A stretch of 49,511 nucleotides of DNA from Candidatus Korarchaeum sp. (GCA_020833055.1 JAJHQZ010000006.1:1-49511), one strand, 5' to 3'. Positions 545 through 15,476 are shown, counted from the first letter of the stretch. Notes: generated by a model not told the origin, from the letters alone. Translations and numbers: made by a program.

Positions 545-785
545 TTTTTTAAGCTATTGTACGACCCTAGGCCCTCCCATCCAGAAGGTTATGGAGGCAA
601 TAGCCGAATTGCAGCTCCCTTTAACGCTCCCCTGACGTTAGTGGATAGCTGTAATATTTCGTGCAGATAATGATAAAAATAATATCAAATCAATGTTCTA
701 TTTTACCATTAAATAAATTTCACATGGATGTCTGAATAATATTTAGATGGAATACAAGAATATTTTAACTTAACCGTGGGTAAGG

Positions 786-823
786 CTTTTATTCTGGGGC
801 AGAAGTTAACTTCTGGGGCAGAA
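786..823 (+). promoter_or_regulatory. Promoter with two tandem palindromes at an ATPase start
   Basis: A TATA-like CTTTTATT at 786-793 is followed by two exact copies of the 15-base unit TTCTGGGGCAGAAGT, starting at 792 and 811 (19-base period). Each copy holds the inverted repeat TTCTG-GGG-CAGAA. The second palindrome ends at 823, and the GTG start codon follows at 824. The palindromes therefore cover the expected transcription start, as an operator or a leader hairpin would. Confidence 0.75.
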
Positions 824-1858
824 GTGCTCTTCGATGAGAGACCGAAGGAGAGGAGGGAGGACCTTTACGATAGGGAGAGGGAGATAGATGAGATAAAGAG
901 GAACGTTGGGAGGCCCCTCATCCTCATAACTGGGATAAGGAGGATTGGAAAGACTTCAGTGCTCAAAGTGGCCCTGAATGAGGTAGATATTCCAGCAGTG
1001 ATAGTAGATGCTAGAGGGCTCAGGAGGAACTACAGCAGGGCCGATCTCTACAGGCTCATAGCTCACGGGCTCACTAGCTCCCTCGATAAGCTGAGGGATC
1101 TCATCTCAGGGATAAGGGGGATAAGGGTCATGGGCCTCGAGGTTGAGCTCTCTTGGAGGGGGAGGGATTCCCTGAGCCTCATAGAGCTATTCGATAAGCT
1201 CAATGAGAGGAAGATTATCATAGCTATTGATGAAGCTCAGAGGCTCAGGGGACCTCAGTCAAATGAGTTGAAAGATGCCCTCGCTCATTCCTACGATTAC
1301 AATAGGAATATAACCTTCATCCTGACTGGATCCGAGGCGGGCCTCCTTCATGATTTCGTAGGTGTTGAGGACGCCAGCTCACCCCTCTATGGGAGGTTCT
1401 ACTTTGAGGTGAAGTTGGATAGGCTGAGCAGGGATCAATCGATCGATTTCCTGAGTAAGGGCTTCGAGCAGTTGAATCTGAGGGTTAGTGAGGAAGTCCT
1501 GGAGAGAGCTTACGAGGAGTTCGATGGGATACCGGGATGGCTTACTTTCTTCGGGAACGCTTACTCGAGTGGAATTAGCTTAGAGAGGATAAAGATCATG
1601 GCAGTGAGGACTGCTCTGGAGGAGCTTAAGAACATGATAAGGGATAATCCCAGGAGATATGGGCTAGTTTTAAGGGCTATAGCAGAGGGGAAGAGGAGCT
1701 GGAGCGATATTAAGGAGTACGTTGAGGAGAGGGAGGGATCCACGATTTCAAGCAGCGTCCTGAGCAATATCATCAGGAATTTGGAGGATATGAGCGTGAT
1801 AAGCAGATATGAATTCCTCGATCCTGTCTATAGGGAAGCGGCGAAGCTCCTCCCTTGA
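824..1858 (+). CDS. ATPase_2-family archaeal ATPase (STAND-like)
   Basis: An archaeal P-loop ATPase of the ATPase_2 (PF01637) type, 344 residues from the GTG at 824. Walker A is GIRRIGKTS near residues 37-45. Walker B is IIIAIDEAQ near 131-139. A sensor-like LTGSE follows near 165, and the last third looks like a winged helix. The open frame extends to a GTG at 776, but that extension would be encoded by the palindromes. Homology with the neighbouring paralogue begins at the LFD-PKER motif right after 824, so 824 is preferred. Unlike the gene at 12556, it has no visible C-terminal nuclease domain. The role is unknown; members of this class expand in archaeal accessory regions. Confidence 0.85.
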   Translation: MLFDERPKERREDLYDREREIDEIKRNVGRPLILITGIRRIGKTSVLKVALNEVDIPAVIVDARGLRRNYSRADLYRLIAHGLTSSLDKLRDLISGIRGIRVMGLEVELSWRGRDSLSLIELFDKLNERKIIIAIDEAQRLRGPQSNELKDALAHSYDYNRNITFILTGSEAGLLHDFVGVEDASSPLYGRFYFEVKLDRLSRDQSIDFLSKGFEQLNLRVSEEVLERAYEEFDGIPGWLTFFGNAYSSGISLERIKIMAVRTALEELKNMIRDNPRRYGLVLRAIAEGKRSWSDIKEYVEEREGSTISSSVLSNIIRNLEDMSVISRYEFLDPVYREAAKLLP

Positions 1859-1883
1859 ATAGCTACCCAGGGCTGGAATGCAT

Positions 1884-1944
1884 AGCTTTTAATTCGGTGG
1901 TGCTCACTAACGGGGGGAGTTAGTAACTAACGGGGGGAGTTAGT
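1884..1944 (+). promoter_or_regulatory. Promoter with two tandem palindromes at the second ATPase
   Basis: A TATA-like AGCTTTTAATT at 1884-1894 precedes two copies of ACTAAC-N7-GTTAGT at 1906-1924 and 1926-1944 (20-base period), with identical G-rich spacers. The layout matches the upstream ATPase gene, but the arm sequence is unrelated. The start codon follows at 1958. Confidence 0.75.
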
Positions 1945-1957
1945 AACGTACTTCGAT

Positions 1958-3037
1958 GTGAACCCGAAGGAGAGGAAGGAGGACTTGTACGATAGGGAGG
2001 AGGAGCTCAGGAGTATTTCAGAAGCGTTGAACTTGAGGGAGAGGTTGATCATAGTCTATGGGATAAGGAGGATTGGGAAGACGAGTTTAATAAGAGTCTC
2101 CCTGGGGGATTATCCTCACGTCCTTCTGGACATAAGGAAGCTTTACTTCAGTGAGAACACTGTGACGATGCCCCTCTTGGTCAAGTATATCTTAGAAGGA
2201 TTCAGGGAGCAAATGAAAGCCAGTGAGAAACTTTATTTAGGCTTAAGGGATGCTATCAGTAGGATAAAGGGACTGAGAATTGGGGAGATCGGCATTGAGA
2301 TAGAGCCCAATGCCAAGGTGTCCCTCACGGATGTCCTCTCCAGGGTTAACGATTGGTGCGAGGAGAGGGGTGAGAGGTTCGTCTTCGCGTTTGATGAAGC
2401 TCAGTACCTCAGGTTTTCAAACATCAGATACGATGGGATAATCGCGTGGGCAGTTGATAACTTGGAAAATCTCAGTTTCCTGCTCTCTGGAAGCGAAATT
2501 GGGGTTTTAAGGGATTTTCTGAGGATCGATGAGCCTGGAGCACCTCTATTCGGGAGGTACAGGAGGGAAGTCTATGTCGATAGGTTCACGGAGGAGGAGA
2601 GCTTCGACTTCCTCCATAGAGGCTTCAGGGAGTTGGGAGTAGAGCCGAAGGTCGATGAGATAGAGTATACTTTAAAAACGCTCGATGGTATAGTCGGATG
2701 GCTCACTTTATACGGTTACATGAGAGCCGTGAGGAAGCTCCCGCATGAAGATGCGCTGGCTAAAGTGTTCGAGGAGGGATCGAAGCTAGTGATGGAGGAA
2801 CTTGATAAGGTGATCTCACCATCTAGAAAAAGATATTTGGCCATAATGAAAGCTGTCGCCCATGGCTCGGACTCTTGGAGCGATATAAAAGCCTATGTAA
2901 CTGCTAGGACCGGGCCGATCCCGGACAGTAGGCTCGATGAACTCTTGGGGAATTTGATCAAGTACGGTTATCTGGAGAAGAACGATGAATACAGGATACC
3001 CGATCCCATCGTGAAGCGCGCGGTCATCAGTTCATGA
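1958..3037 (+). CDS. ATPase_2-family archaeal ATPase, paralogue of the preceding gene
   Basis: A 359-residue P-loop ATPase sharing the PKER-EDLYDRE N-terminus with the gene at 824. Walker A is GIRRIGKTS near residues 35-43 and Walker B is FVFAFDEAQ near 145-153. A LLSGSE sensor-like segment and a C-terminal winged-helix-like region follow. The start is GTG 1958. The in-frame YFDV just before it aligns with the paralogue but is preceded only by non-start codons and then a stop. The gene lies 99 bases after the first ATPase and has its own promoter, so the pair looks like a tandem duplication with separate control rather than an operon. The function is unknown. Confidence 0.85.
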   Translation: MNPKERKEDLYDREEELRSISEALNLRERLIIVYGIRRIGKTSLIRVSLGDYPHVLLDIRKLYFSENTVTMPLLVKYILEGFREQMKASEKLYLGLRDAISRIKGLRIGEIGIEIEPNAKVSLTDVLSRVNDWCEERGERFVFAFDEAQYLRFSNIRYDGIIAWAVDNLENLSFLLSGSEIGVLRDFLRIDEPGAPLFGRYRREVYVDRFTEEESFDFLHRGFRELGVEPKVDEIEYTLKTLDGIVGWLTLYGYMRAVRKLPHEDALAKVFEEGSKLVMEELDKVISPSRKRYLAIMKAVAHGSDSWSDIKAYVTARTGPIPDSRLDELLGNLIKYGYLEKNDEYRIPDPIVKRAVISS

Positions 3038-3174
3038 AGTCTCCGTGCATTATTAAGAGCTCAACTAGAGCGAAGAGACTCTATGATAATCTCGAATTGC
3101 TATGCTTAAGAACTCATTGAATCAATGATCCCAGCGAATTAAAGCGAGAGCTTGAATTCTCTGAGAATCTAATG

Positions 3175-3435
3175 ATGGCGCCTCCTTTGAGTGTGAAGTT
3201 AACGAGGGAAGGGATACTGATTCCGGAGGAGCTTTTTCAAGGAGGTGAATGCTTTCAATAAGTTGAAGCAAGTCCTAGCTACATTGAGACGCTCGCAGAT
3301 GAGGATGCCCCAGAGAGCTTAAGGAAGGGCGGAGAGGAGATCGTCAGGGGAGAGTATGTGGAATGTTCGATAGAGGATCTGGATAATTTTGAAGGGGATC
3401 TGAACTCCACTTTTAAGGACGGAGCCTCCAATTGA
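3175..3435 (+). pseudogene. Frameshifted antitoxin-like gene relic
   Basis: Three reading frames together give a plausible small antitoxin. An AbrB-like opening (LSVKLTREGILIPEELF) begins at the ATG at 3175. A middle part (VNAFNKLKQVLATL) begins near 3244 in another frame. A tail (ETLADEDAPESLRKGGEEI, then VRGEYVECSIEDL) runs in a third frame to the TGA at 3433-3435. The tail resembles small acidic antitoxins found beside RelE or PIN toxins in archaea. No toxin gene is visible next to it. The assignment rests on style of sequence and is tentative. Confidence 0.45.
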
Positions 3436-3538
3436 TAATAAGGGATTATCAAAGATTTCCGCCGACCTCCGGCTCTATTTTGAAGGATAATCCGGGATCA
3501 ACTATCCGGTTTTTATAGGATCTCCCCTCAGTTAGACT

Positions 3539-4297
3539 GTGGAGAGGGGTTACGATCCCATAGCACTCGCTGAGGTAACGAGGAGGATCGTCGAGAGGGA
3601 TGGGAGCAGGAAGTACTACAGGTTCAGAGGGGGCAGGTGGTACGGCGGAATAGCTACTGCGGATTGCGTTGGCTGCAACCTGAGGTGTATCTTCTGCTGG
3701 AGCAACACGCCTAGGGATAATCCGGCCATGGGCTGGGGGTTCTACAGCCCCGAGGAGGTATATCGCAACTTAGTAAAAATAGCTGAGAGAAGGGGCTACA
3801 GGCTGCTCAGAGTATCCGGGAACGAGCCAACGATATGCTGGGATCACTTGATGAAGATCCTCGAGCTAGTAGAGGAGGATGGACGCTTCAAGTTCATCCT
3901 GGAGACGAACGGTACCCTGATAGATGAGGAGAAGGCTTATGACCTCTCTATGTTCAGGAGGGTCCACGTGAGGGTATCCCTGAAAGGGGCGTGCGAGGAG
4001 GAGTTCAGCCTCCTCACCGGAGCTAGGCCAGAGGCCTTCGAGCTGCAGCTCAATGCATTGAAGCATCTAGCTGATCATAATGTCCCAGCCCATCCGGCTG
4101 TCATGCTCTCCTTCTCGAGTGAGGAGAGCGTAGGGAAGCTCATAGAGAGGCTGAATGAGATAGATCCAGTTTATGTGAGGGAGTTAGAGGAGGAGTACGT
4201 TTTTCTCTACCCTCACGTCAAGGAGAGGCTGAGAAGAGCTGGGATTATGCCAAAAGTGGCATATGAGCCTGATAGAGTGCCAGAGGACCTCGTATGA
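3539..4297 (+). CDS. Radical SAM domain protein
   Basis: A 252-residue protein with the radical SAM cluster motif CNLRCIFCW: Cys46, Cys50 and Cys53 are set to bind a 4Fe-4S cluster that cleaves S-adenosylmethionine. An extra Cys43 precedes the motif. A glycine-rich segment (VSGNEPTICWDH) and an ETNG motif (LETNGTLI) follow as in pyruvate-formate-lyase-activase-like members. The GTG start at 3539 fits a TATA-like GTTTTTATAG about 25 bases upstream, so the mRNA is probably leaderless. It stands alone between an antitoxin relic and a nucleotidyltransferase relic. The substrate cannot be told from sequence. Confidence 0.85.
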   Translation: MERGYDPIALAEVTRRIVERDGSRKYYRFRGGRWYGGIATADCVGCNLRCIFCWSNTPRDNPAMGWGFYSPEEVYRNLVKIAERRGYRLLRVSGNEPTICWDHLMKILELVEEDGRFKFILETNGTLIDEEKAYDLSMFRRVHVRVSLKGACEEEFSLLTGARPEAFELQLNALKHLADHNVPAHPAVMLSFSSEESVGKLIERLNEIDPVYVRELEEEYVFLYPHVKERLRRAGIMPKVAYEPDRVPEDLV

Positions 4298-4375
4298 GTC
4301 ATCATGGGTAGGCTCTTTACCTCATACTGTTTCTGGAGAGCCTCAAATGGGTAGAGGAGGATCGACCTTAAATAT

Positions 4376-4911
4376 GTGATGGATATTCAACTAGTCGTGA
4401 GGAAGCTACTCGAGTACGACCCGGAAATAGTGGAGATAGTCCAATTCGGTTCCTCGGTTTATGCGCCTGAGCACGCCAGGGATCTGGATCTCCTCATCAT
4501 AACGGGGAGTATCCGAGAGAGGGACTTGAGGAGGAGTTCTATAAATGGTTCAGGAGAGTTGAGGAGTATATCTCGAGCTTAGAATCGAAAGTTAAATCTA
4601 GATGACCTCTAGCACTCAGAATGTTTCTAGGAGGTTCACAAATGGCGTATGTTTTTACGCATTCATTGAGAGGATAAGTGGTGGCTTGGAGCTTCAGGAG
4701 TATTCTTCGATCCACGGATTATATTGGGCCTGTGATACGCGCATTAAAGCAGCGGGATCTCATACTGAAGCTACTAGCTGCTGGGATGAGCTTGAGGAAC
4801 TCAGAACTACAGAATCGGTTTGAGGATATAAAAGCTACACTGCTTTATGCTACTAGAGTATTGAGGAGAGAGGATCTCCTTTTCCTCCGAAGGTCCCGAG
4901 CCTTCGGATGA
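4376..4911 (+). pseudogene. Decayed nucleotidyltransferase (MNT-like) gene
   Basis: The first part (ATG at 4376 or 4379) carries the minimal nucleotidyltransferase signature GSSVYAPEHARDLDLLI: a GS motif, then Asp-x-Asp that binds metal. Near 4525 the frame shifts, and the sensible protein continues as GLEEEFYKWFRRVEEYISSL. It is then cut by in-frame TGA (4600) and TAA (near 4677) codons. The last segment, ending at 4911, reads as an alpha-helical region (QNRFEDIKATLLYATRVLRR). With one frameshift and two stops it is a pseudogene. Intact relatives are often paired with HEPN proteins in toxin/antitoxin modules. A TATA-like CCTTAAATATG lies just before the start. Confidence 0.65.
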
Positions 4912-5021
4912 GAGCATGAGGATCGAAACCTGCGAGGGACTGGAAAGCACGAGTTTCGATGCGCAAAGCATTACGGCGGAGAGGAATCAACCTTAAATAT
5001 CCGCATTACGTCATTTACGCG

Positions 5022-5564
5022 ATGGATCCAATATACTACGTGATCAGCATCTCACTCACTATAATAGGAATGCTCGCGGGAGTGACTTATTGGTTGGGGA
5101 GGAAGTTTTCTAGAATAGATCACAGGTTCGAGAAGATTGAGGGGGAGATCTCCAGGTTAAGAGGAGATATTTCGAGAGCTTTCGATGGGATGAAACCTGC
5201 TACTGTAACGATAAACTCCCTCATGCTGGACTTCCTCAGTCTTAAGGGCTTGATAAGGGATGATGAGGCGAGGATGATAGGATCTGAGATGCAGAGGGTT
5301 TTCTCCATCGTGAAGCTGAATCCCTTAGCAAAGGAGGACCTTGAGTACCTGAGGAAGATCTTTTCAAAGGATGTGGATGAGATAACGATAGAGGAGGCGG
5401 AGAAAGTAGCTGAGATAGGGAAGAAATGGTGGTATGAGGACGGGAGCGAGATAGCCTACAAGACTTTTTTAGCGGGGCTCGTGATAAGAGGTTATCACAT
5501 ATCGAAGATGGTGAAGGAGGGAAAGAAACCCTGGCTTGAGCCCCCTTTCAGGGGAAAGGAATGA
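5022..5564 (+). CDS. Membrane-anchored coiled-coil protein of unknown function
   Basis: Predicted 180 residues from the ATG at 5022. The frame is open from 4959, but the TATA-like CCTTAAATAT at 4991-5000 favours 5022 as a leaderless start. Residues 4-25 form one transmembrane helix (YYVISISLTIIGMLAGVTYW). A charged coiled coil follows (FSRIDHRFEKIEGEISRLRG), then a helical C-terminal half. I do not recognise a catalytic motif. It sits between a nucleotidyltransferase relic and ATPase/nuclease-like genes, but spacing gives no evidence of an operon. Confidence 0.7.
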   Translation: MDPIYYVISISLTIIGMLAGVTYWLGRKFSRIDHRFEKIEGEISRLRGDISRAFDGMKPATVTINSLMLDFLSLKGLIRDDEARMIGSEMQRVFSIVKLNPLAKEDLEYLRKIFSKDVDEITIEEAEKVAEIGKKWWYEDGSEIAYKTFLAGLVIRGYHISKMVKEGKKPWLEPPFRGKE

Positions 5565-5611
5565 TTTCCCCTCAAAGGTAAATCTTGCCCTCTCTCAACA
5601 CCACTTTGTAC

Positions 5612-5740
5612 TGGCGAAGCTTATATCTTGTCAGCCGACTGACAAGATGGGGGGTAATGCACTCTCAGAACCTGGGAATGGGGATTAGGGATCTGAGGAA
5701 ATACAATGAAAGCGGGGTCAAATGGAGGCCCTCCTGAATA
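5612..5740 (+). pseudogene. Truncated duplicate of the AAA_14 ATPase promoter and 5' end
   Basis: This stretch is a shortened, decayed copy of 6713-6866. It has a TATA-like AAGCTTATAT, the palindrome CTTGTCAG-CCGA-CTGACAAG at 5627-5646, an ATG at 5647, and a run matching the start of the downstream ATPase gene (GATCTGAGGAAATACAATGA is shared, as is AAATGGAGGCCCTCCTG). It ends in stops near 5740, where the oppositely oriented nuclease-like gene finishes. Only about 30 codons survive. Its arms match those of its sister copy exactly. Confidence 0.8.
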
Positions 5741-5744
5741 GTTA

Positions 5745-6386
5745 TCAGCTATATTCCTCTATCTTCAGGGGCGTCAGGTCCTTCTCCCACCTCATTACCC
5801 ATATATTGTTGTTTCTAGCTGCTTCTACGGCCTCCGGGACAGCGTAATCAGTATATATGACCTTTATGATCCTCTTCCTCAGGAGATCCGGCCTCTTACT
5901 TCTTATTAGCTCTATCTCATCCAAGAGCTCGTAAACGAGATTCACCCCCAATCTGACTGTGGCTTCCCCTATCACGCAGAGATCTTCGGTAGCCCCATAT
6001 ATGTTCACCTCTTTGGAGTCAATGAAAATACTGCTCAGCTCTATATCTACTTTGAGATCCTGCTTTATCCTGTGCTTTATCATGCTCCTCGCTTCCTCCT
6101 CGACTGTCAGGGTGAGCCTCTCCAAGGTAGCGGACATCCTGCTAATCGTGATACGCATTTCCCTCACTTCCTCCCACAGCTTATTCTGCCCTTCTCTGAG
6201 AGCTTTTACCTCCTCCCACAGCTTATTTTGTCCTTCCCAAAGCTTATTTTGGTTCTCTTCAAGGCTATCAAGTCTCTTCAATATCTCGGAAATCCCCAAA
6301 TAGCCAGCAACTGCATATCTAAACTCCAGATCCCTCTCTAGAAGGTCTAGCATCTCCTTTTTGAGCCTGCTAGTAGCCCTAGCCAC
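5745..6386 (-). CDS. Coiled-coil protein with PD-(D/E)XK-like C-terminal domain
   Basis: 213 residues. Residues about 35-75 hold a repetitive coiled coil in which QNKLWE occurs three times. The C-terminal half (DIELSSIFIDSKEVNIYG, then EDLCVIGEATVRLG) resembles archaeal PDDEXK_10/DUF1626-type proteins. The usual acidic ExK catalytic core reads E-A-T, and the Asp position reads Asn, so nuclease activity is doubtful. The GTG start at 6386 fits a TATA-like ATTTTTATATG on this strand near 6410. It lies between the ATPase relic and the full-length ATPase copy, facing both. The nuclease fold is inferred from overall pattern only. Confidence 0.65.
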   Translation of the reverse strand: MARATSRLKKEMLDLLERDLEFRYAVAGYLGISEILKRLDSLEENQNKLWEGQNKLWEEVKALREGQNKLWEEVREMRITISRMSATLERLTLTVEEEARSMIKHRIKQDLKVDIELSSIFIDSKEVNIYGATEDLCVIGEATVRLGVNLVYELLDEIELIRSKRPDLLRKRIIKVIYTDYAVPEAVEAARNNNIWVMRWEKDLTPLKIEEYS

Positions 6387-6494
6387 AGGACAATCGAGCG
6401 AGCTGCATATAAAAATTTTGGGGTGTTCTGGCTCTCGATATATGATGTAGAGCCTCCTCAGATGATGTGGAAAGATAGATTAAAGCCCTCTTTT

Positions 6495-6632
6495 ACAAGC
6501 AGTGACTTCTCACAGAGTTCATCGGAGCCCAGCTTCCCATCTCACGCTTACGGAATCTAATCGATCTGGAAATTACCGAAAGGGCTTAAACCTTCATCCT
6601 CATGAGCATTATGTTGAGAAGCCACTGCTTGT
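6495..6632. repeat. Inverted repeat with 18-base arms, MITE-like or long hairpin
   Basis: The left arm at 6495-6512 (ACAAGCAGTGACTTCTCA) and right arm at 6615-6632 are reverse complements with 17 of 18 matches. They enclose about 100 bases of non-coding sequence. The size and layout fit a miniature inverted-repeat element or a structured transcript. I see no flanking target duplication and no protein-coding sense inside. The surrounding 6387-6692 gap holds nothing else I can identify. Confidence 0.5.
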
Positions 6633-6692
6633 GAACTCCATAAACAAGGGCTCTCCCTGCATTAGTCAGATCTCCTTTTCTCAAGCAATATA

Positions 6693-6744
6693 TTGTCAGT
6701 GCATTGACAAAGCTTTATATATATCTTGTCAGCTGACTGACAAG
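6693..6744 (+). promoter_or_regulatory. Promoter with palindromes flanking the TATA box of the AAA_14 gene
   Basis: TTGTCA-N6-TGACAA lies at 6693-6710. A TATA box CTTTATATATAT is at 6713-6724. The longer palindrome CTTGTCAG-CTGA-CTGACAAG is at 6725-6744 and touches the ATG at 6745. The two palindromes share the TTGTCA half-site, and their centres are 33 bases apart, about three helical turns. This is what a dimeric repressor binding on one DNA face would need. Confidence 0.75.
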
Positions 6745-7932
6745 ATGGAGGAGCTAATATATTCCCAGAATCCCTGTGGGAGTGGGAGAACTGGGAGACA
6801 AGAGACAGAGATCTGAGGAAATACAATGAAAGCAAGGTGAAATGGAGGCCCTCCTGGATAGATAAGGTCTCCCTTGAGCCCTCCTCCATGAACGTAGTGA
6901 TGGGACCCAGGCAAGTTGGGAAGACGACGGGAGCGAAGCTCCTCATATCTGAGCTCCTGAAGGGGAGAAGCTCAGGATCGATCTTCTACTTCAGCTGCGA
7001 TCTCGCCTCCGATTCAAAGGAGCTGAGGGATGTCCTGAACTTCTACAGGAGGTTTAAGGAGAGAAATGGAGTGAAGAGCTCTATTATCTTTCTGGATGAG
7101 GTCACTGGGCTGGAGGGCTGGTGGAGGATATTGAAGGGATACGTTGATCTAGGCCTCCTGGAAAGGGATGCCTTGGTTCTTCTAGGCTCCGCTTCGTTCA
7201 GGTTCGAAGGGTTCTCTGAGGCCTTTCCCGGGAGGAGGGGGATGGGGAGAACTGTGGAGGTACTTCCTCTCAGCTTTCCGGAATATGCGAGGGTGAGAGA
7301 GGTTGAATTGAGGATCAGCGAGTACAGCAGAATTCTCTCGGCTTTTGATGAATATCTCGAGACCGGAGGATTTCCCAGGAGCATAAATGGAGATGAAAGA
7401 TTTCCGGAGGATCTAATTGTCAGCATCGAGATGGACTCCGTTAAGGCGGGAAGAAATCCCAGGATTCTGAGGCTTATAGCTAAATCGATAATAGAGAAGG
7501 CTCCTAGTGCCATCAGCTTCAACTCGATCGCGGGAGATCTCGGGATATCGCACAACACTGTCCATGATTATGTAAGGCTGATGGAGGACATGTTCCTCCT
7601 TGGAGTAGCTTACTTAAAGGAAGATGGGAAGATCCTCTACAGAAGGGAGAAGAAGATCTTCATCAGGGATCCATTCATTGCGATATCTCTCTCTCAAAGC
7701 TCCTCGGGGCAGATCTCTCAAGAGCAGCTCTCCTTGAATGGGTCGTTCAGGAGCACGTCCTAAGGGCATTCGGGGAAGTTTACTTCTGGAGGAATGGATT
7801 CGAGGTGGATGTCATTTCTGGAAAGCTGAAAGTCGAGGTTAAGGCTGGAAAGCCTCACAGGAGATATCCCAGAGGTGTCACGGTCCTTTCCGAAGAGGAT
7901 ATACAGGCTTTCCTCCTGAACTTAGGAAGATA
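6745..7932 (+). pseudogene. AAA_14/DUF4143-type ATPase with C-terminal nuclease-like domain, two frameshifts
   Basis: The main open part (6837-7763) has Walker A MGPRQVGKTTG, Walker B SIIFLDEVTG and the domain order of AAA_14 plus DUF4143 proteins. Translation from the ATG after the palindrome (6745) fits the family N-terminus, but one base is missing at 6775-6777, inside what should be a second TGG codon. Near the 3' end the G-run at 7706-7709 is one base short. In the restored frame the protein continues as ALLEWVVQEHVLRAFGEVYF and ends with FEVDVISGKLKVEVKAGK, a PD-(D/E)XK-like D...ExK core, stopping at 7930-7932. Both lesions are single bases, so a very recent pseudogene, programmed frameshifting or sequence error are all possible. 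A shorter product could start at GTG 6837. Confidence 0.8.
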
Positions 7933-7962
7933 GAGAAATCAGACTTCCTAACTAGGAAACGG

Positions 7963-8571
7963 TCATCTGCTCTCCAGGATCTTCCTTATCTCAGCAGGTC
8001 TCCTCACTATCTTGACCCCCATCCTATCAGCGAAATCAGCGACTCTCTTTGGTATAATCCCTGATCTCGAGTATATTATCAGGAGATCCGGTTTCCTTCC
8101 CCAATCCTCCTCTATAACGCCGATCCCATCCTTCAGCTGCCTTACGTCCTCTATCTTAGGCATCGCTATATCTATGGATGCTAGGATTCCCCTTCCCTCT
8201 ATCAGGACATCCGCCCCCGCTCCATCCCAGATGAAGACCTCGTAATCCGGGGCATTCTTCCTGAACCATCCCTGAAGCATCAATCCAGTTCTGAACTCCA
8301 CATCCCTTTCCCTCAGCTTCCCAGTTTCCCCGAGAAGTCTTTTCACATTTTCAGTCAGCTTATCTATGTTTTCAGTACTCTTATCAACTTTCTCCGTCAA
8401 TTTTGCTATATTCTCAGTATTTCTATCAATTTCCCTCTCTATATGGGATATTAAATCTAGGAGAGGCTTGAACACATCTCTGAACACTATCCTTCCCGCT
8501 TCCTCGTATTTTCCTCTCCTTATAGCCTCCAGCACGATATCCTCAGCTTTCTTTAATGCTTCTTCCATCAT
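7963..8571 (-). CDS. Coiled-coil protein with PD-(D/E)XK-like domain
   Basis: 202 residues. Residues about 45-85 form a coiled coil with repeats of the type TENI-KLTE-VDK. The C-terminal part (YEVFIWDGAGADVLIEGRG, then ASIDIAMPKIEDVRQLKDG) resembles the restriction-like fold of archaeal DUF1626-type proteins. The usual E-x-K reads S-I-D, so catalysis is uncertain. The ATG-ATG start follows a TATA-like CTTTTTAAGATC. It is convergent with the broken AAA_14 gene and has the same architecture as the gene at 5745. The repeated pairing of such proteins with ATPases hints at a joint role, which is inference. Confidence 0.65.
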   Translation of the reverse strand: MMEEALKKAEDIVLEAIRRGKYEEAGRIVFRDVFKPLLDLISHIEREIDRNTENIAKLTEKVDKSTENIDKLTENVKRLLGETGKLRERDVEFRTGLMLQGWFRKNAPDYEVFIWDGAGADVLIEGRGILASIDIAMPKIEDVRQLKDGIGVIEEDWGRKPDLLIIYSRSGIIPKRVADFADRMGVKIVRRPAEIRKILESR

Positions 8572-8644
8572 GGCAATACCTTAAAATGATCTTAAAAAGA
8601 TTACACAAGGCCGCTCAATTCATTAGGATGCGCTGCATGATGGC

Positions 8645-8995
8645 CTATGTGCCTGTCAGCCTCCCCTTCAACAAGTTTATTATATCAGATTTTATGGATG
8701 ATACCTCCTGCTTCAGCAGCCTCACTTCCTCCTTAAGATCGTCGATCTTCCTATTCGTATCATCTATCCTCTTGTTGAGGGAAGCGCTCAGGTCATCTAT
8801 CCTCTTGTTAAGGGAAGTGTTTAGATCATCTATCCTCCTATTCGTATCATCTATCCTCCTGTTTATCTGGTCAAGGAGGAGGATTATTACATCGATGCTA
8901 GTGAGCTTCTTCCCCTCAGTTATCTTCTTCGCTATCCTCTCGGATGCCTGCCTGAGTGCCTCCTCCAAGACGGATGTGACTACAGCTTCTGCCAC
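8645..8995 (-). CDS. Small coiled-coil protein with NRRIDD-type repeats
   Basis: 116 residues. After an amphipathic N-terminus (EEALRQASERIAKKI), residues 42-95 consist of repeated units around N-[RK]-R-I-D-D (NRRIDDTNRRIDDLN and variants), a long parallel-type coiled coil. The DNA repeats too, with TCATCTATCCTC recurring on the plus strand. A TATA-like ACATTTATAT near 9027-9018 on this strand fits leaderless translation from the GTG at 8995. A frameshifted homologue lies at 19384, so the family is mobile or prone to duplication here. Tail-fibre-like and scaffold roles are both possible; none can be assigned. Confidence 0.65.
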   Translation of the reverse strand: MAEAVVTSVLEEALRQASERIAKKITEGKKLTSIDVIILLLDQINRRIDDTNRRIDDLNTSLNKRIDDLSASLNKRIDDTNRKIDDLKEEVRLLKQEVSSIKSDIINLLKGRLTGT

Positions 8996-9279
8996 AGGGG
9001 AAGCTGCTGAGGGAGGGATATAAATGTATCCATTTTATCGAGTCATCTCCTCAATACCTCTGGGGAATAGAAACTGACAGGGCCGTGCGGGGCATGAGAT
9101 AGGCAGTTGATGAATCGAGTTCGATAACCCTATCTGAAGTGAGTCTTATGGAGAATAATTACACGAGCTGAGCTCTGAATGGGAAGTTCCACGTATATTA
9201 TCAATATCCGTTAGTCTGAGGATTGGAAGTAAATCCTCTGAAATATTATAAGCTCCTCACTCGAGACTACCGGATGCGT

Positions 9280-10218
9280 ATGGAGTTCAGGTATATAGGA
9301 GATGTCAAGGTCTCGGAGGTGGGCTTGGGGACCTGGCAGTTCAGCGACTCCTGGGGAGTGACTAGCTACGATCTCGCCAAGTCCATCATAGAGAGAGCTC
9401 TGAATGTCGGAGTGAACTTCTTCGATACCGCAGCAGTATATGGGATGGGGATGAGCGAGAGGTTCCTCGGGCAGGCCCTCAAGGAGCTGGGGGAGAGGGA
9501 GAACGTCTTCATAGCTACTAAGATACCCGGGGAATTCTTATCCAGGCACGACGTATTTAAAGCTACCAAGAGGTCCATGGAGAGGCTGGGGAGCTACATA
9601 GATCTAATGCAGGTCCACTGGCCCCCCTGCTGGGATAACATACCGACGTGCGAGTACATGAGAGCTTTAGAGGAGTTAGTCCACATAGGGGCGATAAGAA
9701 TGATAGGGCTCAGCGATTTCCCCCCTGAGCTCATAGAATCTGCCTGGTCCTGCCTATCAACTGAGGATATAGTCAGCATCCAGGTGAAGTACAACTTAGT
9801 TGAGAGGGATGCTGAGAAGGAGATAATCCCCTACGCAGAGGCATACGATTTGAGCGTTCTTGCATGGTCCCCTCTAGCTAAAGGAGCCCTTTCAGGGAAG
9901 TACAGGCCCGAGAACCTTCCGAAGTTCAGCGATGTCAGGGAGGGCTCCGCCGTATTCCATCCCGAGAACTTCAGGCAGGTTTATGAGATAGTGAAGTTGC
10001 TTGAGGAGATTGGAGCGAAGTACGGGAAGAAACCATCTCAAGTGGCTTTGAAATGGCTCCTCATGGCTAGTGAGAAGGTGATAGTGATACCTGGAGCTAA
10101 GAGCCCGGAGCAAGTGGAGGAGAATGCGGGGGCATCGGGTTGGACCATGAGCTTAGAGGACTGGATGAAGCTGGAGGAGGAGAGCGGTAAGATAAGGATA
10201 ACTAGGGTTCTTTGGTAG
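9280..10218 (+). CDS. Aldo/keto reductase
   Basis: 312 residues from the ATG at 9280. NAD(P)H-dependent aldo/keto reductases reduce sugar or other aldehydes and ketones. The family marks are present: VGLGTWQFSDSWG near the N-terminus, FFDTAAVYGMGMSERFLG with the catalytic Asp and Tyr, the Lys in IATKIP, the His in LMQVHWP, and VIPGAKSPEQVEENAGAS near the cofactor phosphate site. The frame is open from 9223. A TATA-like AATATTATAAG at about 9240-9250 makes a start at 9274 or 9280 likely. It is a single-gene unit. Confidence 0.9.
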   Translation: MEFRYIGDVKVSEVGLGTWQFSDSWGVTSYDLAKSIIERALNVGVNFFDTAAVYGMGMSERFLGQALKELGERENVFIATKIPGEFLSRHDVFKATKRSMERLGSYIDLMQVHWPPCWDNIPTCEYMRALEELVHIGAIRMIGLSDFPPELIESAWSCLSTEDIVSIQVKYNLVERDAEKEIIPYAEAYDLSVLAWSPLAKGALSGKYRPENLPKFSDVREGSAVFHPENFRQVYEIVKLLEEIGAKYGKKPSQVALKWLLMASEKVIVIPGAKSPEQVEENAGASGWTMSLEDWMKLEEESGKIRITRVLW

Positions 10219-10437
10219 ATAGGTTCGGTTGATCACAGCTAGAATAGAGATGCAACGCTGGAGGAGCCTTCCTACCCCTACATCTTTATTCCGAGAGAAA
10301 ATATGAGAAGCAACTCCATCTCTCTTTTATCCTAGGGCTGCAACCAGACTGAGATAAATTCGTATGTTAAGAGTTCCCGGGAAAAATATACCTCTATTCA
10401 CCGAAAGTTTTTTTATGATATCATTCGATCGCTTCGT

Positions 10438-10803
10438 ATGCCAGAGCAGAGAGGGAGCTTACTGCTGGGCGTCATCGTAGGATTCATAATCCACTTGCTG
10501 CTCGGAGGTACGCTCCCAGTGATCGGGGATCTAATAGCGGGCCTCGTCGCTGGATACATAGCGAAGGGCGTGGGCAGAGGAGCTGCAGCTGGCTTCCTAT
10601 CGGGGGCCTTAGGGGGGATAATCCTCGCTATAATCCTGCCCCTCCTACTCACCCCCCTATCGAGCCTCTTTCCATTCTTAGCACCATTCTTAGGTTACCT
10701 TCAGGCTAGTGTCGCGTTATTAGCGATAGCCCTCTCGATCAAAGGAGCTCTGATAGGCTTACTAGGAGGTGTGATAGGAGGGGCTATCTCAGCCAGGCGC
10801 TAA
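10438..10803 (+). CDS. Small glycine-rich membrane protein (DUF5518-like)
   Basis: 121 residues with four predicted transmembrane helices, rich in Gly and Ala (FIIHLLLGGTLPVIGDLIAG, then GAAAGFLSGALGGIILAIIL). The pattern resembles archaeal DUF5518 proteins of unknown function. The ATG at 10438 follows a TATA-like TTTTTTTATGAT by about 25 bases. No partner gene is adjacent. Confidence 0.7.
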   Translation: MPEQRGSLLLGVIVGFIIHLLLGGTLPVIGDLIAGLVAGYIAKGVGRGAAAGFLSGALGGIILAIILPLLLTPLSSLFPFLAPFLGYLQASVALLAIALSIKGALIGLLGGVIGGAISARR

Positions 10804-11089
10804 GCCTTCTAGCGCCTCATCGAGTCCTCTAAAATGCCTCTATAACGAACTTATCTCCGAGCTCCGCCTTTTCTATTTAATAATTTATCTAAGAGTTTCC
10901 AGCCCCAGGGTAACCTCCCTCAATTCCCAGTAGCCCACGCTCTACATCTTTTCCTCTCTCATTAGATGGCATCATCGCTCCATTATTCTCCTTTCAAATC
11001 GATCGAAGCTTAGAAACTACCTTAGGAGTGCTTCCCTGACTCCCTATATGATAGAAGCCGAGATCACAGCGAGGATTGATGTGGACTCA
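10804..11089. other. Intergenic stretch without recognised gene
   Basis: A 286-base gap between the membrane protein and the AbiE-like promoter. It contains TTTAATAATTTATC near 10875 and pyrimidine-rich stretches. I see no open frame with sensible codon use on either strand and no clear hairpin. Confidence 0.5.
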
Positions 11090-11109
11090 GGTTATACTTA
11101 TATATAACC
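11090..11109 (+). promoter_or_regulatory. Palindrome overlapping the TATA box of the AbiE-like pair
   Basis: GGTTATA-CTTATA-TATAACC is a perfect 7-base-arm inverted repeat that contains the TATA box (CTTATATATA). The GTG start is 14 bases downstream. AbiEi-type antitoxins commonly repress their own operon, so this is a natural operator candidate. Confidence 0.6.
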
Positions 11110-11122
11110 GTAGGTCTATATT

Positions 11123-11704
11123 GTGGAACCCAGGAGGATCTCTCTTATCAAGATACTCAAGGGGAAGCTCTTGAAGATAGCTGAGCTCCAAGATGCGGTG
11201 ATTCTAGAGCTCTCCAGGAGATTCAACTTCGTCCTCCATGGAGGTCTAGCTGTCTGGAGGGTTTACGGAGGGAAGAGGTTCTCATTGGACATAGATATCT
11301 ATCATGATAATCCCAGAGAACTCGTGAACATCCCATTTAAATCCACGAGAGTGCTCACGGCATCGGGAGTCCTTTATTTGAGAATCAAGGATGATGTTGA
11401 AATAGAGCTCGAGGCATCCCCCATGTTCGAGGAGGTAGTGGAGGCAGATTACTGGCTCGTCGATGGAAGTAGCATCGTCGTCAGGACTCTCAAACAAGAG
11501 GAGCTCGTCAGGGAGAAGGTGAGGGCATTCCTGGAGAGGGGGAAAGCGGAGGACCTCTACGATATCTACTACCTCCTGGACCTATGCGATCCCGGGCTCA
11601 TAAGGGAGGATATGAGAGTCCTCTCAGGGAAATTGAGGATGCCTGATGATTTCTCAGGACTTAAGGAGCTCATATTGATGGAGCCCCTAGCTTCGATGCT
11701 ATAG
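11123..11704 (+). CDS. AbiEii/AbiGii-type nucleotidyltransferase toxin
   Basis: 193 residues. The nucleotidyltransferase signature HGGLAVWRVYGGKRFSLDID holds the GG...S...DxD metal-binding core seen in AbiEii-type toxins. A further acidic strand, DVEIELEASPMF, provides the third carboxylate region. REKVRAFLERGKAEDLYDIY is the conserved C-terminal AbiEii motif. Bacterial AbiEii transfers nucleotides to RNA and blocks growth. The gene comes first in a two-gene operon, 18 bases before the putative antitoxin. The order is the reverse of classic bacterial abiEi-abiEii. Confidence 0.8.
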   Translation: MEPRRISLIKILKGKLLKIAELQDAVILELSRRFNFVLHGGLAVWRVYGGKRFSLDIDIYHDNPRELVNIPFKSTRVLTASGVLYLRIKDDVEIELEASPMFEEVVEADYWLVDGSSIVVRTLKQEELVREKVRAFLERGKAEDLYDIYYLLDLCDPGLIREDMRVLSGKLRMPDDFSGLKELILMEPLASML

Positions 11705-11722
11705 AGAGGAAAGTGAGGAAGT

Positions 11723-12316
11723 ATGCCTCACTATAAGTACTCACAACTCCTGGAAGAGCTCAGGAGATCCTCCTTCTTCACTTACAGTTTCGTTGAGCGG
11801 GCTGCCGGTAGCTACGCGAAGCTCCTGATCCACAGGCTGAGGGAGAGAGGGGAAATAGAGGAGCTCATTAAAGGGGTCTACACATTCAAGAAGTCCCCCT
11901 ACATGATTGTGAAGGCAATCCCTTCTTATATAGGTCTAGGATCAGCTGCATTCCTCCATGGAGCCTGGGATCAAGTGACAGCTATAACAGTACTCTCCCC
12001 TATGGTCTCGAGCTCGGTAAAGGGAGGGATGAGGGAGATAGCTGGATACAAAGTGTATCTCAGGAGGATCTCTGAGAAGATGTACTTCGGGTACGATTAC
12101 ATATTCATAGATGAGATAGGGGAGTTCTTGAGGGTGAGCGATCCTGAGAAGACCCTGATAGACATCTTATACTACAGATATCCTTTCAGGGATGAGATAA
12201 TTCCGAGGCTCGTTGAGATAGTGGATAGGGGGAAGCTGATGGATTACGCTGATGAGATCAGGAGGAGAGGGGTTAGGGGGTGGAGGTCTTTGAGCAACTA
12301 TCTCGAGAACCTCTGA
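11723..12316 (+). CDS. AbiEi-type antitoxin / winged-helix regulator
   Basis: 197 residues. The N-terminal 60 residues look like a winged helix (LLEELRRSSFFTYSFVERAA, then RLRERGEIEELIKGVYTFKK). The middle resembles AbiEi C-terminal domains: GLGSAAFLHGAWDQVTAITV, then DPEKTLIDILYYRY. Such proteins neutralise the AbiEii toxin and repress the operon. The gene follows the toxin with a short gap and a purine-rich AGAGAGGAAAGTGAGG as ribosome binding region. The palindrome at 11090 is its likely target. Confidence 0.75.
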   Translation: MPHYKYSQLLEELRRSSFFTYSFVERAAGSYAKLLIHRLRERGEIEELIKGVYTFKKSPYMIVKAIPSYIGLGSAAFLHGAWDQVTAITVLSPMVSSSVKGGMREIAGYKVYLRRISEKMYFGYDYIFIDEIGEFLRVSDPEKTLIDILYYRYPFRDEIIPRLVEIVDRGKLMDYADEIRRRGVRGWRSLSNYLENL

Positions 12317-12358
12317 TGAGAGCCTCAGGGAATATACTGGGCAAAATCTGAGCTTGGA

Positions 12359-12477
12359 TCAGATGAAGCAACTCTTTCCGACCTTCCTCCTCCCGTAGAC
12401 TAAGGTCCGCTCCCGGTGTTCCTGAACCTATCCAAATCACTAAACCTGATTATACTAACCGCAATTAGTATAATCAT
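12359..12477 (-). pseudogene. Start fragment of an ATPase_2 gene with its palindrome
   Basis: Reading leftward from an ATG at 12477-12475, the frame gives a hydrophobic start and then IIRFSDLDRFR, like the N-terminus of ATPase_2-DUF234 proteins. After one frameshift near 12407 it gives TLVYGRRKVGKSCFI and a TGA at 12361-12359. VYGRRKVGKS is a canonical Walker A of this family. A perfect inverted repeat GATTATACTAA-N6-TTAGTATAATC lies at 12448-12475, touching the start codon. I see no clear TATA box upstream. The rest of the gene is gone. Confidence 0.75.
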
Positions 12478-12555
12478 GGTTAGGGTATGAGCCTTCCGCT
12501 CGGCGATCCTCGATAGGCCAGCTATATCGACTCCTATCTTCGACCTGCATCCGGC

Positions 12556-13905
12556 TTAAGTGCATTCCTGATCGCAGAGCTCAGCTAGGCTCACCTGCCT
12601 CACGCCCTCCTCCGGCTCAAATGCGAAGCCACTCCTAGAGTAGATGTAGTAGACTTCCCTCCTCTCCCCCCTCCTCCATTCGAACTCCTCAGCCTTCCTC
12701 TCGAGCTCCCTCAGGACGGATTTGTCCAGGGGATTCCTGGACCATTTAGCCTCCATGAAATAAGCTATCCCTTCCCTCTCATCTACAGCCACCCCATCTA
12801 TCTCCACTTCGCCCCGCCACCACCTGCCGGCTCTCAGCTGTACTGAATGGGAGAAGTGCTCGAGAGCTATCTCCTCGAATATCTTAGAAACGTATTCATC
12901 CAGTCTCTCCGAGATCCTCGCAGCAACCCTTTCCACTTCCCCCAGCTCGAGGAGGTGGAGGTTAGGCCTTACGTATGTGAACCAGAAGCTGAGGAAATTA
13001 TCCTTTATGAAGTATCTGGCCCTCCCGCGTCTCCCCTCCTCTAGCAGAGGGTACCTCCTCTCCACAATATCGAGGAGAGCTTCTAGAGTCCTCATGTACC
13101 TCGGCAGCTCGCTGGATGAGAGCCCGCTCTTGGATGCTATCTCCCCCAGCGTAGTAGCTCCCGATGCCATTGCCTCGAGTATCGTCATGTATCTAAGAGG
13201 CTCCCTTGTCTCAGTTGCCAGAAGGAAATAGGGTTCCTCGTGCAAAGGCCCCGTCGGCTCCAATACCAGATTTTTGATGTTTTCGAGGAGGCTCTCATAT
13301 CGAAGGAGCGATAAGTATGCGGGGACACCTCCGAAGACAGCGTAAGCCCTTACTCTATCCTCGCACGACCAAGTGAAGAACTCCTTAGCGCACCTGAACG
13401 TGAAGGGCCTCACCTTGAGCTGTCCCGTCCGCCTCCCGAAGATCGGAGAGGAGGATGAGAGGGCTACTCTCTCGACGACACCGACTGAGGAGCCGCTCAG
13501 CACTAGGAAGACATTGGATCCGCTGAGGAATTCATCCCAGGCTGCCTGCAGTTCATTGAGGAACCCCGGGTCGTACTCCGCCAATCTCTGGAACTCATCT
13601 ATGGCTAGGATGATCCTCCCATTGTCGCTCTCCCTCGCTATGTATCTGAATAGCTCCTTATAGCTCCGTAATAACGGTGGATGGACACCTAGTTGCTCGC
13701 TTATCGCCTCGGAGATCTCCTGGAGGATATTTCCAAGCCTGGAAACCACGAAGTAAACGCCCCTCTTACCTGAGAGGAACTTCCTGAGCAGTAGAGTCTT
13801 GCCCACTCTCCTCCTCCCGTAAACGATTATCAGCTCAGCTCTATGCGAGCGGTACCTCTCCTCCAGGAAGCCGAGCTCCCTGCCCCTATTTATGAATGTG
13901 ATCAT
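12556..13905 (-). CDS. ATPase_2 plus DUF234-type ATPase with PD-(D/E)XK-like C-terminus
   Basis: 449 residues from the ATG at 13905, chosen because MITFINRGRELGFLEERY matches the family N-terminus; the open frame reaches 13935 only by reading through the palindrome. Walker A is YGRRRVGKTLLL near residues 29-40. Walker B is IILAIDEFQRL near 110. A LSGSSVG sensor follows. After a winged-helix region the C-terminal domain contains GEVEIDGVAVDEREGIAYF and then MEAKWSR, an E-x-D...ExK arrangement of restriction-endonuclease-fold nucleases. This looks intact and is the best model for the ATPase-nuclease class in the window. The function is unproven. Confidence 0.85.
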   Translation of the reverse strand: MITFINRGRELGFLEERYRSHRAELIIVYGRRRVGKTLLLRKFLSGKRGVYFVVSRLGNILQEISEAISEQLGVHPPLLRSYKELFRYIARESDNGRIILAIDEFQRLAEYDPGFLNELQAAWDEFLSGSNVFLVLSGSSVGVVERVALSSSSPIFGRRTGQLKVRPFTFRCAKEFFTWSCEDRVRAYAVFGGVPAYLSLLRYESLLENIKNLVLEPTGPLHEEPYFLLATETREPLRYMTILEAMASGATTLGEIASKSGLSSSELPRYMRTLEALLDIVERRYPLLEEGRRGRARYFIKDNFLSFWFTYVRPNLHLLELGEVERVAARISERLDEYVSKIFEEIALEHFSHSVQLRAGRWWRGEVEIDGVAVDEREGIAYFMEAKWSRNPLDKSVLRELERKAEEFEWRRGERREVYYIYSRSGFAFEPEEGVRQVSLAELCDQECT

Positions 13906-13945
13906 CATGATTACAATCATCATGAACATATTCATAAATATAGCC
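13889..13945 (-). promoter_or_regulatory. Promoter with long palindrome across the ATPase start codon
   Basis: Arms of 24 bases at 13889-13912 and 13915-13938 match as reverse complements at 21 of 24 positions, with a 2-base spacer. On the minus strand a TATA-like GCTATATTTA (13944-13935) abuts the palindrome, and the start codon at 13905 lies inside it. Transcription start and start codon are therefore both within the repeat. Confidence 0.75.
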
Positions 13946-15137: not shown

Positions 15138-15476
15138 GTGATCATGAAAGTGAGAATGGTATATTTATGGTATATTGATCGATCTAGAGAGCATAGCTTA
15201 AAGCTTCTCAGGAGGAATTATCAACTTAAAGAGCTCTATACCATTTTTAAGGGATCATCTGACGATATAAGCTCATTTTCTCGGATAAAATCTGAGATAT
15301 ACTTCCTAAGGGAGGAGGGGTCGAGTTCCTCCCTTAGAATCTGGATTTTACATGTTTCCCTTGGATATCTCGCCCCAAGCTCAGAGCTAAGTCTAATTAC
15401 ATCTTCCTACTCAGCCTTTCTAATAGAACTAGGACAGTCCACTAATCAAGATCAGAGACAAGGGAGAATTTCTTAG
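15138..15476. other. Low-complexity gap with a possible minus-strand relic
   Basis: A plus-strand frame exists, but its composition is not gene-like. On the minus strand a better-looking frame of about 55 codons (DVIRLSSELGARYPRETC, then DPSSLRKYISDFIRENELI) ends near 15240, preceded by an in-frame TAG. I do not recognise it. It may be the tail of a lost gene at the edge of the AT-richer cassette. Confidence 0.25.

Follow-up and report, generated by a model that had tools for sequence, protein, structure and literature searches.

Twin palindromes over the core promoters of ATPase_2 and AAA_14/DUF4143 genes in Korarchaeum and beyond: probable operators of autogenous repression

Genes of the ATPase_2 and AAA_14/DUF4143 families in Korarchaeum carry at their own starts two palindromes that match each other and lie over the core promoter at a fixed spacing. 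The arrangement is conserved, and the three operators that were searched for in two genomes were found nowhere but at the gene to which they belong or at its relic. The layout probably reflects autogenous repression, in which the HTH of each encoded protein would bind the twin operator that overlies the core promoter of its gene. Palindromes at ATPase starts had been noticed in a first-pass annotation of one window, which here means the whole analysed stretch of 49,511 nucleotides (contig C6 of a 1.39-Mb Candidatus Korarchaeum sp. genome, G000); the observation was confirmed and extends far beyond that first description.

Results

Start-proximal palindromes were present in the window at four ATPase genes and at one 5' relic, and all six palindrome sites of the first-pass annotation were found and located exactly in the sequence. 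Four of the palindrome sets were twin sites, with dyad centres 19, 20, 33 and 15 bp apart. The gene of ATPase A (824..1858, + strand), which encodes an ATPase_2 domain and an MCM_C-type winged helix according to Pfam, is preceded on the + strand by two copies of TTCTGGGGCAGAA, the first at 792-804 and matching TTCTG-GGG-CAGAA exactly, the second at 811-823 and abutting the likely GTG start at 824; their centres are 19 bp apart. The start was taken as 824, although the longest ORF begins at 776, because homologues and the operator point there. Just 5' of the first copy, GCTTTTATTC (785..794, + strand) was read from the sequence as a putative TATA-like box, as the layout of archaeal promoters suggests. 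The gene of ATPase B (1958..3037, + strand), with the same two Pfam domains, has two copies of ACTAACGGGGGGAGTTAGT (ACTAAC-GGGGGGA-GTTAGT) at 1906-1924 and 1926-1944 on the + strand, with centres 20 bp apart, and a TATA-like box AGCTTTTAATTC was read at 1884..1895 (+ strand). In both genes the two copies stand head-to-tail, directly 5' of the start.

The AAA_14/DUF4143 gene at 6745..7933 (+ strand) encodes an AAA+ domain, an HTH and a (D/E)-K nuclease-like C-terminus. Its TATA box CTTTATATATATC (6713-6725, + strand) is situated between both operator copies: an upstream copy TTGTCAGTGCATTGACAA at 6693-6710 (+ strand) with a TTGTCAG half-site, and a downstream copy CTTGTCAGCTGACTGACAAG at 6725-6744 (+ strand) that abuts the ATG at 6745. 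The centres are 33 bp apart. The palindromes of this gene had been placed downstream of the TATA box, which holds for one copy, while the other is upstream. Compared with its relatives, frame changes interrupt the gene at two points, near 6775 and 7700. It belongs to the AAA_14/DUF4143 family (PF13173 and PF13635), with 77.1 bits for AAA_14 and, in this frame-broken gene, 25.5 bits for DUF4143, slightly below the cut-off of 28.1; its genus relatives score well above the DUF4143 cut-off. Sequence comparison identified 5647..5740 (+ strand) as a partial duplicate of the 5' end of this gene, with 18 codons at 89% and 55 nt at 91%, and the earlier description of this locus as a relic was thereby borne out. 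The relic retains a single operator copy, CTTGTCAGCCGACTGACAAG at 5627-5646 (+ strand), whose arms are identical to those at 6725-6744.

The fourth gene (12556..13907, - strand) is of the ATPase_2/DUF234 type and encodes an AAA+ domain, a winged helix and a nuclease-like C-terminus. In the open reading frame 12556-13935 of the window, both Pfam domains exceeded the gathering score (PF01637, 78.2 bits; PF03008, 68.1 bits), and the PADLOC model PDC-S27 matched at 1.8e-44 over residues 2-444 of 474. Its twin operator (13888..13926, - strand) overlaps the start and covers the ATG at 13905, and a TATA-like box CTATATTTATG was read at 13933..13943 (- strand). The first-pass annotation had rightly seen a palindrome at this start; what it described as 24-base arms is really an imperfect long palindrome composed of two dyads, centred at 13913.5 and 13898.5, thus 15 bp apart. 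The longest perfect palindrome of the window, TGATTATACTAACCGCAATTAGTATAATCA, lies at 12447-12476 (+ strand) and overlaps an ATG. The longest perfect inverted repeats include this one (arm 12) and those at 5625/6723 (arm 10); arms of at least 11 bp occurred twice in the window and in none of five Markov simulations. A relic gene had been proposed to start at 12477. No protein relic was detected downstream of the palindrome, and a second, weak dyad (score 14.4) was found 15 bp away. As this is the DUF234 spacing, the palindrome is possibly a relic of a DUF234-type twin operator.

The generality of the pattern was investigated in 16 genomes, namely that of the window and 15 relatives from the genus. 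The sequence upstream of 48 ATPase_2 entries and of 49 AAA_14/DUF4143 entries was examined; genome G001 contributed two loci that both searches recovered and that are counted in both sets. The controls were 204 other genes from the same sequence stretches, not from whole genomes. The paired-dyad score was designed for pairs of dyads resembling each other, and it left the centre distance free between 13 and 60 bp. The median score was 16.6 for ATPase_2 and 17.4 for AAA_14/DUF4143 genes vs 9.8 for the controls, and 85% and 80% of the genes, respectively, exceeded the control 95% point. After similar proteins had been collapsed, 28 of 37 family members remained above it vs 11 of 204 controls (Fisher p = 4e-20). 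When the same region was Markov-shuffled 60 times, no shuffle attained the score for 75% of the family genes, vs 3% of the controls. The best single inverted repeat was also tried as a statistic; it works but is weaker, since mis-chosen starts and short arms dilute it, and the paired-dyad score was used instead. Approximately 20% of the genus members scored inside the control range, which is partly due to a wrong choice of start, and some of them perhaps have no site. Two ATPase_2 genes of the window genome that lie outside the window (L006 and L007) were below the threshold with automatic start choice; by eye, they have the same kind of twin units.

The first-pass annotation had assumed one architecture across both families. 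Instead, three classes emerged without any tuning of the distance, each with its own spacing. The centre distance was 15 bp in 22 of 22 DUF234-type genes above the threshold, 17-20 bp in the short ATPase_2 genes whose product has an MCM_C-like winged helix (wHTH type), and 32-35 bp in 37 of 39 AAA_14/DUF4143 genes above the threshold. A TATA-like element was present between the copies in 30 of 37 AAA_14/DUF4143 genes vs 3.4% of control stretches. In wHTH-type genes both copies are downstream of the TATA box, and the spacer of the dyads is usually a G run on the coding strand.

Beyond the genus, a genome collection was scanned for DUF4143 genes, and the 80 loci obtained represent many phyla of both bacteria and archaea. 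The starts of these distant genes scored far above their neighbours (79 genes vs 256 neighbours, p = 3.5e-20), although the signal was weaker, with 49% of the genes above the control 95% point. Among these 39 genes, 17 had a spacing of 22 bp and 18 one of 31-34 bp; in all, 36 fell at 22-23 or 31-34 bp, distances near two and three turns of DNA. The twin layout was present in DUF4143 genes of bacteria, other archaea and also viruses, and in viral DUF234-type genes 15 bp often recurs. Three plasmid homologues (Thermus, Moraxella and Treponema) had a single strong palindrome, close to the annotated start or on it, in place of two sites, and some plasmid homologues had no clear site; the twin form is therefore common, not universal. 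Taken together, the start-proximal palindromes are kept in orthologues and in distant homologues, and control genes do not show palindrome pairs in the score, shuffle or TATA comparisons, as the first-pass annotation had led one to expect of a feature specific to these ATPases.

The uniqueness of three window operators was determined in two genomes, G000 and G001, the latter a single contig of 1,590,757 bp and probably Korarchaeum cryptofilum. The operators of ATPase A and of ATPase B each had two copies, both at their own promoter, in either genome, and CTTGTCAG-N4-CTGACAAG was confined to the 6745 gene and its relic. For the operators searched, no copy was found at the 3' end of the gene or elsewhere in these two genomes. 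A transposon or another element bounded by inverted repeats was rejected for these operators, their copies being on the 5' side only. The idea that the palindromes are private tags thus held between paralogue groups in Korarchaea; it was weaker in bacteria, where the half-site TTTACTCAAT is common to homologues of many phyla, and these homologues also have the same recognition helix.

It had further been suggested that the palindrome arms covary with the winged helix, and in the DUF4143 family the result was positive, with phylogenetic caveats. Recognition-helix types sorted with half-sites in DUF4143 proteins and, by inspection, in ATPase_2 groups. The pairs were GxSYKTVRDY with TTAGAAG, GYSYKVVQxY with TTGAGA, xMSKKTLYKY with TTAGTTT, NTTTLAHYL with TTTACTCAAT and NTDLxKxYI with TTTACTAG, of which the last two distinguish two sets of related proteins that share the 22-bp spacing. 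G001 was dropped as a source of covariation: it is 97% identical to the window genome across the locus, its operators are identical and it is hence without information. When operator similarity was regressed globally on the sequence identities of helix, ATPase domain and nuclease, the coefficient was 0.53 for the ATPase domain vs 0.16 for the recognition helix (p = 0.009). As this regression is confounded by relatedness, it was set aside, and all columns of the DUF4143 alignment were instead scanned with overall identity regressed out. The top two columns were Y284 and D289 of L104, a full-length DUF4143 relative, both within the HTH recognition helix. Because a gap-rich stretch near I243, which is not part of the HTH, was also among the top sliding windows, the scan lends support but is not conclusive. 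The covariation of helix and operator in the AAA_14/DUF4143 family likewise supports recognition and does not prove it, because the genes are related and not independent.

All protein types combine an AAA+ domain with an HTH. The nuclease-like C-termini noted in the first pass were recovered in DUF234-type and DUF4143-type proteins, where D and E-x-K positions are conserved; Pfam recognised no nuclease domain in the short wHTH group. The predicted structures were confident (pLDDT 90.8). The DUF234-type model matched PAB2304, SSO1545 and DNA-bound Orc1/Cdc6 (2qby, 2v1u), and the AAA_14 model matched Apaf-1, CED-4, Cdc6/Orc1-DNA, MalT, NLRC4 and Avs5. The AAA_14/DUF4143 proteins matched PADLOC PDC-S01 (L086, 3.7e-51; window gene, 5.6e-30). 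Together with the PDC-S27 match, these HMM-level hits to candidate models make the proteins candidates for a role in phage defence; the S in both model names presumably stands for single gene. In the window, no obvious small partner gene of the kind seen in toxin-antitoxin systems was found beside the ATPase genes.

Discussion

Among the three readings offered in the first-pass annotation, self-repression or an identity tag read by the encoded protein is the best supported by the controls, the conservation, the covariation and the private operators. We infer three steps: that the encoded protein binds the sites, that binding represses transcription instead of activating it, and that a signal lifts the repression. 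On this reading, an ATPase of the AAA+/STAND-like kind, which has a winged-helix segment and often a nuclease-like C-terminus, would use its HTH to read the twin operator at its own core promoter, where the copies flank or follow the TATA box at the distance typical of the family. The TATA box and the transcription start would then be covered by two bound dimers or a single higher oligomer and transcription blocked, so that the protein would hold its own level low until a change of its ATP state, or titration by a trigger, released the repression. Since half-site and matching helix differ for each paralogue group, neighbouring paralogues would not be expected to repress one another.

Other explanations have to account for the same geometry. 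Weak palindromes are common in AT-rich DNA, and the sites could in principle be an artefact of chance or of promoter composition. This is hardly credible given the fixed spacings, exact doubling and conservation, and it was refuted by the comparisons with control genes, distant genomes, collapsed proteins and shuffles. The palindromes might instead act in RNA, as a leader hairpin that controls translation or stability, since the second copies reach up to or into the start codon and have arms that are able to pair. In most AAA_14/DUF4143 genes, however, one copy is upstream of the TATA box and therefore outside the expected transcript; moreover, a hairpin does not need copies that match each other at a fixed spacing, and no Rfam family matched. 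The leader hairpin, which was also proposed in the first pass, is accordingly disfavoured as a very improbable reading.

The nuclease-like C-termini of the DUF234 and DUF4143 proteins, the fold matches to Orc1/Cdc6 on DNA and the existence of paralogues, relics and viral and plasmid copies of these genes would all suit sites that are targets of the ATPase-nuclease in a mobile or selfish cycle, for cleavage, homing or the start of replication. Orc1/Cdc6 genes adjoin their own origin boxes, and the G-run spacer of the wHTH dyads may resemble the G run of such origin recognition boxes. Nevertheless, this seems improbable: the searched operators have no further copies at the 3' end or elsewhere, the sites hold a constant position with respect to TATA box and start codon, as one would expect of operators, and the wHTH group has the same kind of sites with no recognised nuclease domain. 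Activation by the encoded STAND protein, or a switch with an activator at one copy and a repressor at the other, is rather unlikely, yet it finds some support in sites both up- and downstream of the core promoter, which would permit both roles, in the induction of a Thermus homologue described below, and in the STAND relatives MalT and IniR, which are transcription activators (IniR with a ChIP peak; PMC5760070). Against it, both copies are on or adjoin the core promoter, where a bound protein should block, and those of the wHTH type are both downstream of the TATA box. Autogenous repression by the encoded protein is thus the reading we prefer.

Control of this kind is familiar. Toxin-antitoxin operons and the controller proteins of restriction-modification systems have gene-specific, self-regulating twin palindromes over the promoter; those systems use a separate antitoxin or controller gene, whereas here one large ATPase or ATPase-nuclease appears to be regulator and effector. 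Orc1/Cdc6 initiators likewise combine AAA+ and winged helix; here, in contrast, nothing points to an origin, and the position of the sites is tied to the start codon and the TATA box. IniR resembles the present proteins as a STAND ATPase with a DNA-binding domain on a promoter (PMC5760070), and MalT is a STAND regulator by fold; both activate other operons, whereas here the sites are only at the gene's own start. The archaeal AAA+ ATPases SSO1545 (2fna) and PAB2304 (2qen) share fold and sequence family with the DUF234-type protein, and no description of their function or operator was found in openly searchable papers. PDC-S01 and PDC-S27 cover the same families, and the PADLOC models are silent on operators. 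In the openly searchable literature, neither such operators for DUF234, DUF4143, SSO1545, COG1373/COG1672, AAA_14 or Korarchaeum nor a function for the widespread AAA_14/DUF4143 and ATPase_2/DUF234 families was found described. As subscription papers and preprints were outside the search, the systematic use of twin-operator autoregulation in these families is provisionally new.

A private twin operator provides a handle on the control of these ATPases and on the target of their HTH. It predicts a binding site for each gene, permits correction of start codons and makes the role of these genes as single-gene defence candidates directly testable, while the lists of paired helices and half-sites constitute a natural recognition code that spans many paralogue groups. 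A more speculative and on balance doubtful extension is that these genes form a pan-prokaryotic class of single-gene defence modules built on a STAND ATPase-nuclease, with the sensor-effector sitting as a dimer pair on the private operator in its own promoter. Infection might alter its ATP state, or bring in foreign DNA or proteins that titrate it away; the freed protein could then act at once, while repression of its gene would be lifted, and the operator/helix pairs of the paralogues would be an expandable set of orthogonal self-addresses.

A hint of inducibility comes from Thermus thermophilus, where the AAA_14/DUF4143 gene TT_P0211 rose 6.6-fold in ago+ cells when a plasmid was present (PMC4406477). 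The only DUF4143-like gene found on the record of a Thermus plasmid, which is probably TT_P0211, has the palindrome TGAATGA-CTA-TCATTCA immediately 5' of its start.

Proposed operators of the ATPase_2 and DUF4143 genes

In the short ATPase_2 group, whose members encode an MCM_C-like winged helix, the spacer of each dyad was usually a coding-strand G-run (window 792-823 and 1906-1944, and relatives), and the symmetry of the dyad was broken by it. A G-string is also present in archaeal origin boxes, and the G-run spacers resemble it.

For the DUF234-type gene in the window, the start given by the longest ORF (13935) is probably wrong: across 13905-13935 the ATG/CAT-rich operator would then be translated through as MNMFMMIVIMM, and homologues favour a start at 13905. 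In a DUF234-type subgroup (L029 and L031, from genomes G004 and G008) a single wide palindrome around the start, GTTGACTC...GAGTCAAC, replaced the twin dyads 15 bp apart.

The half-site TTTACTCAAT, with a 22-bp spacing, was found repeatedly in DUF4143 genes across many phyla (bacterial loci L164, L171, L179-L182, L193, L199, L204, L206, L211, L212, L216 and L218), where it was mostly accompanied by the recognition helix NT(T/V)TL(A/S)HYL. Compared with its relatives, the AAA_14/DUF4143 gene at window 6745-7933 changes frame at two places, near 6775 and 7700, which reflects either a broken gene or a sequence error. The stretch 4802-7244 is absent from the genus relative G001, and takes in the 5' part of this gene together with its partial duplicate, the 5647 relic.

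Other features of the window

Three coiled-coil-like ORFs close to one another and with heptad-like repeats lie on the minus strand (5745-6386, 7963-8571 and 8645-8995); a Pfam scan of two of the three gave no match above the curated cut-off. An AbiEii/AbiEi_4-like toxin-antitoxin pair (11123-12316) has in its promoter the palindrome GGTTATACTTATATATAACC (11090-11109), which overlaps the TATA box and is consistent with autoregulation of the kind that is ordinary for such pairs. A perfect inverted repeat with 11-bp arms, CTAAGGGAGGA...TCCTCCCTTAG, was located at 15306-15337, without a link to an ATPase gene.
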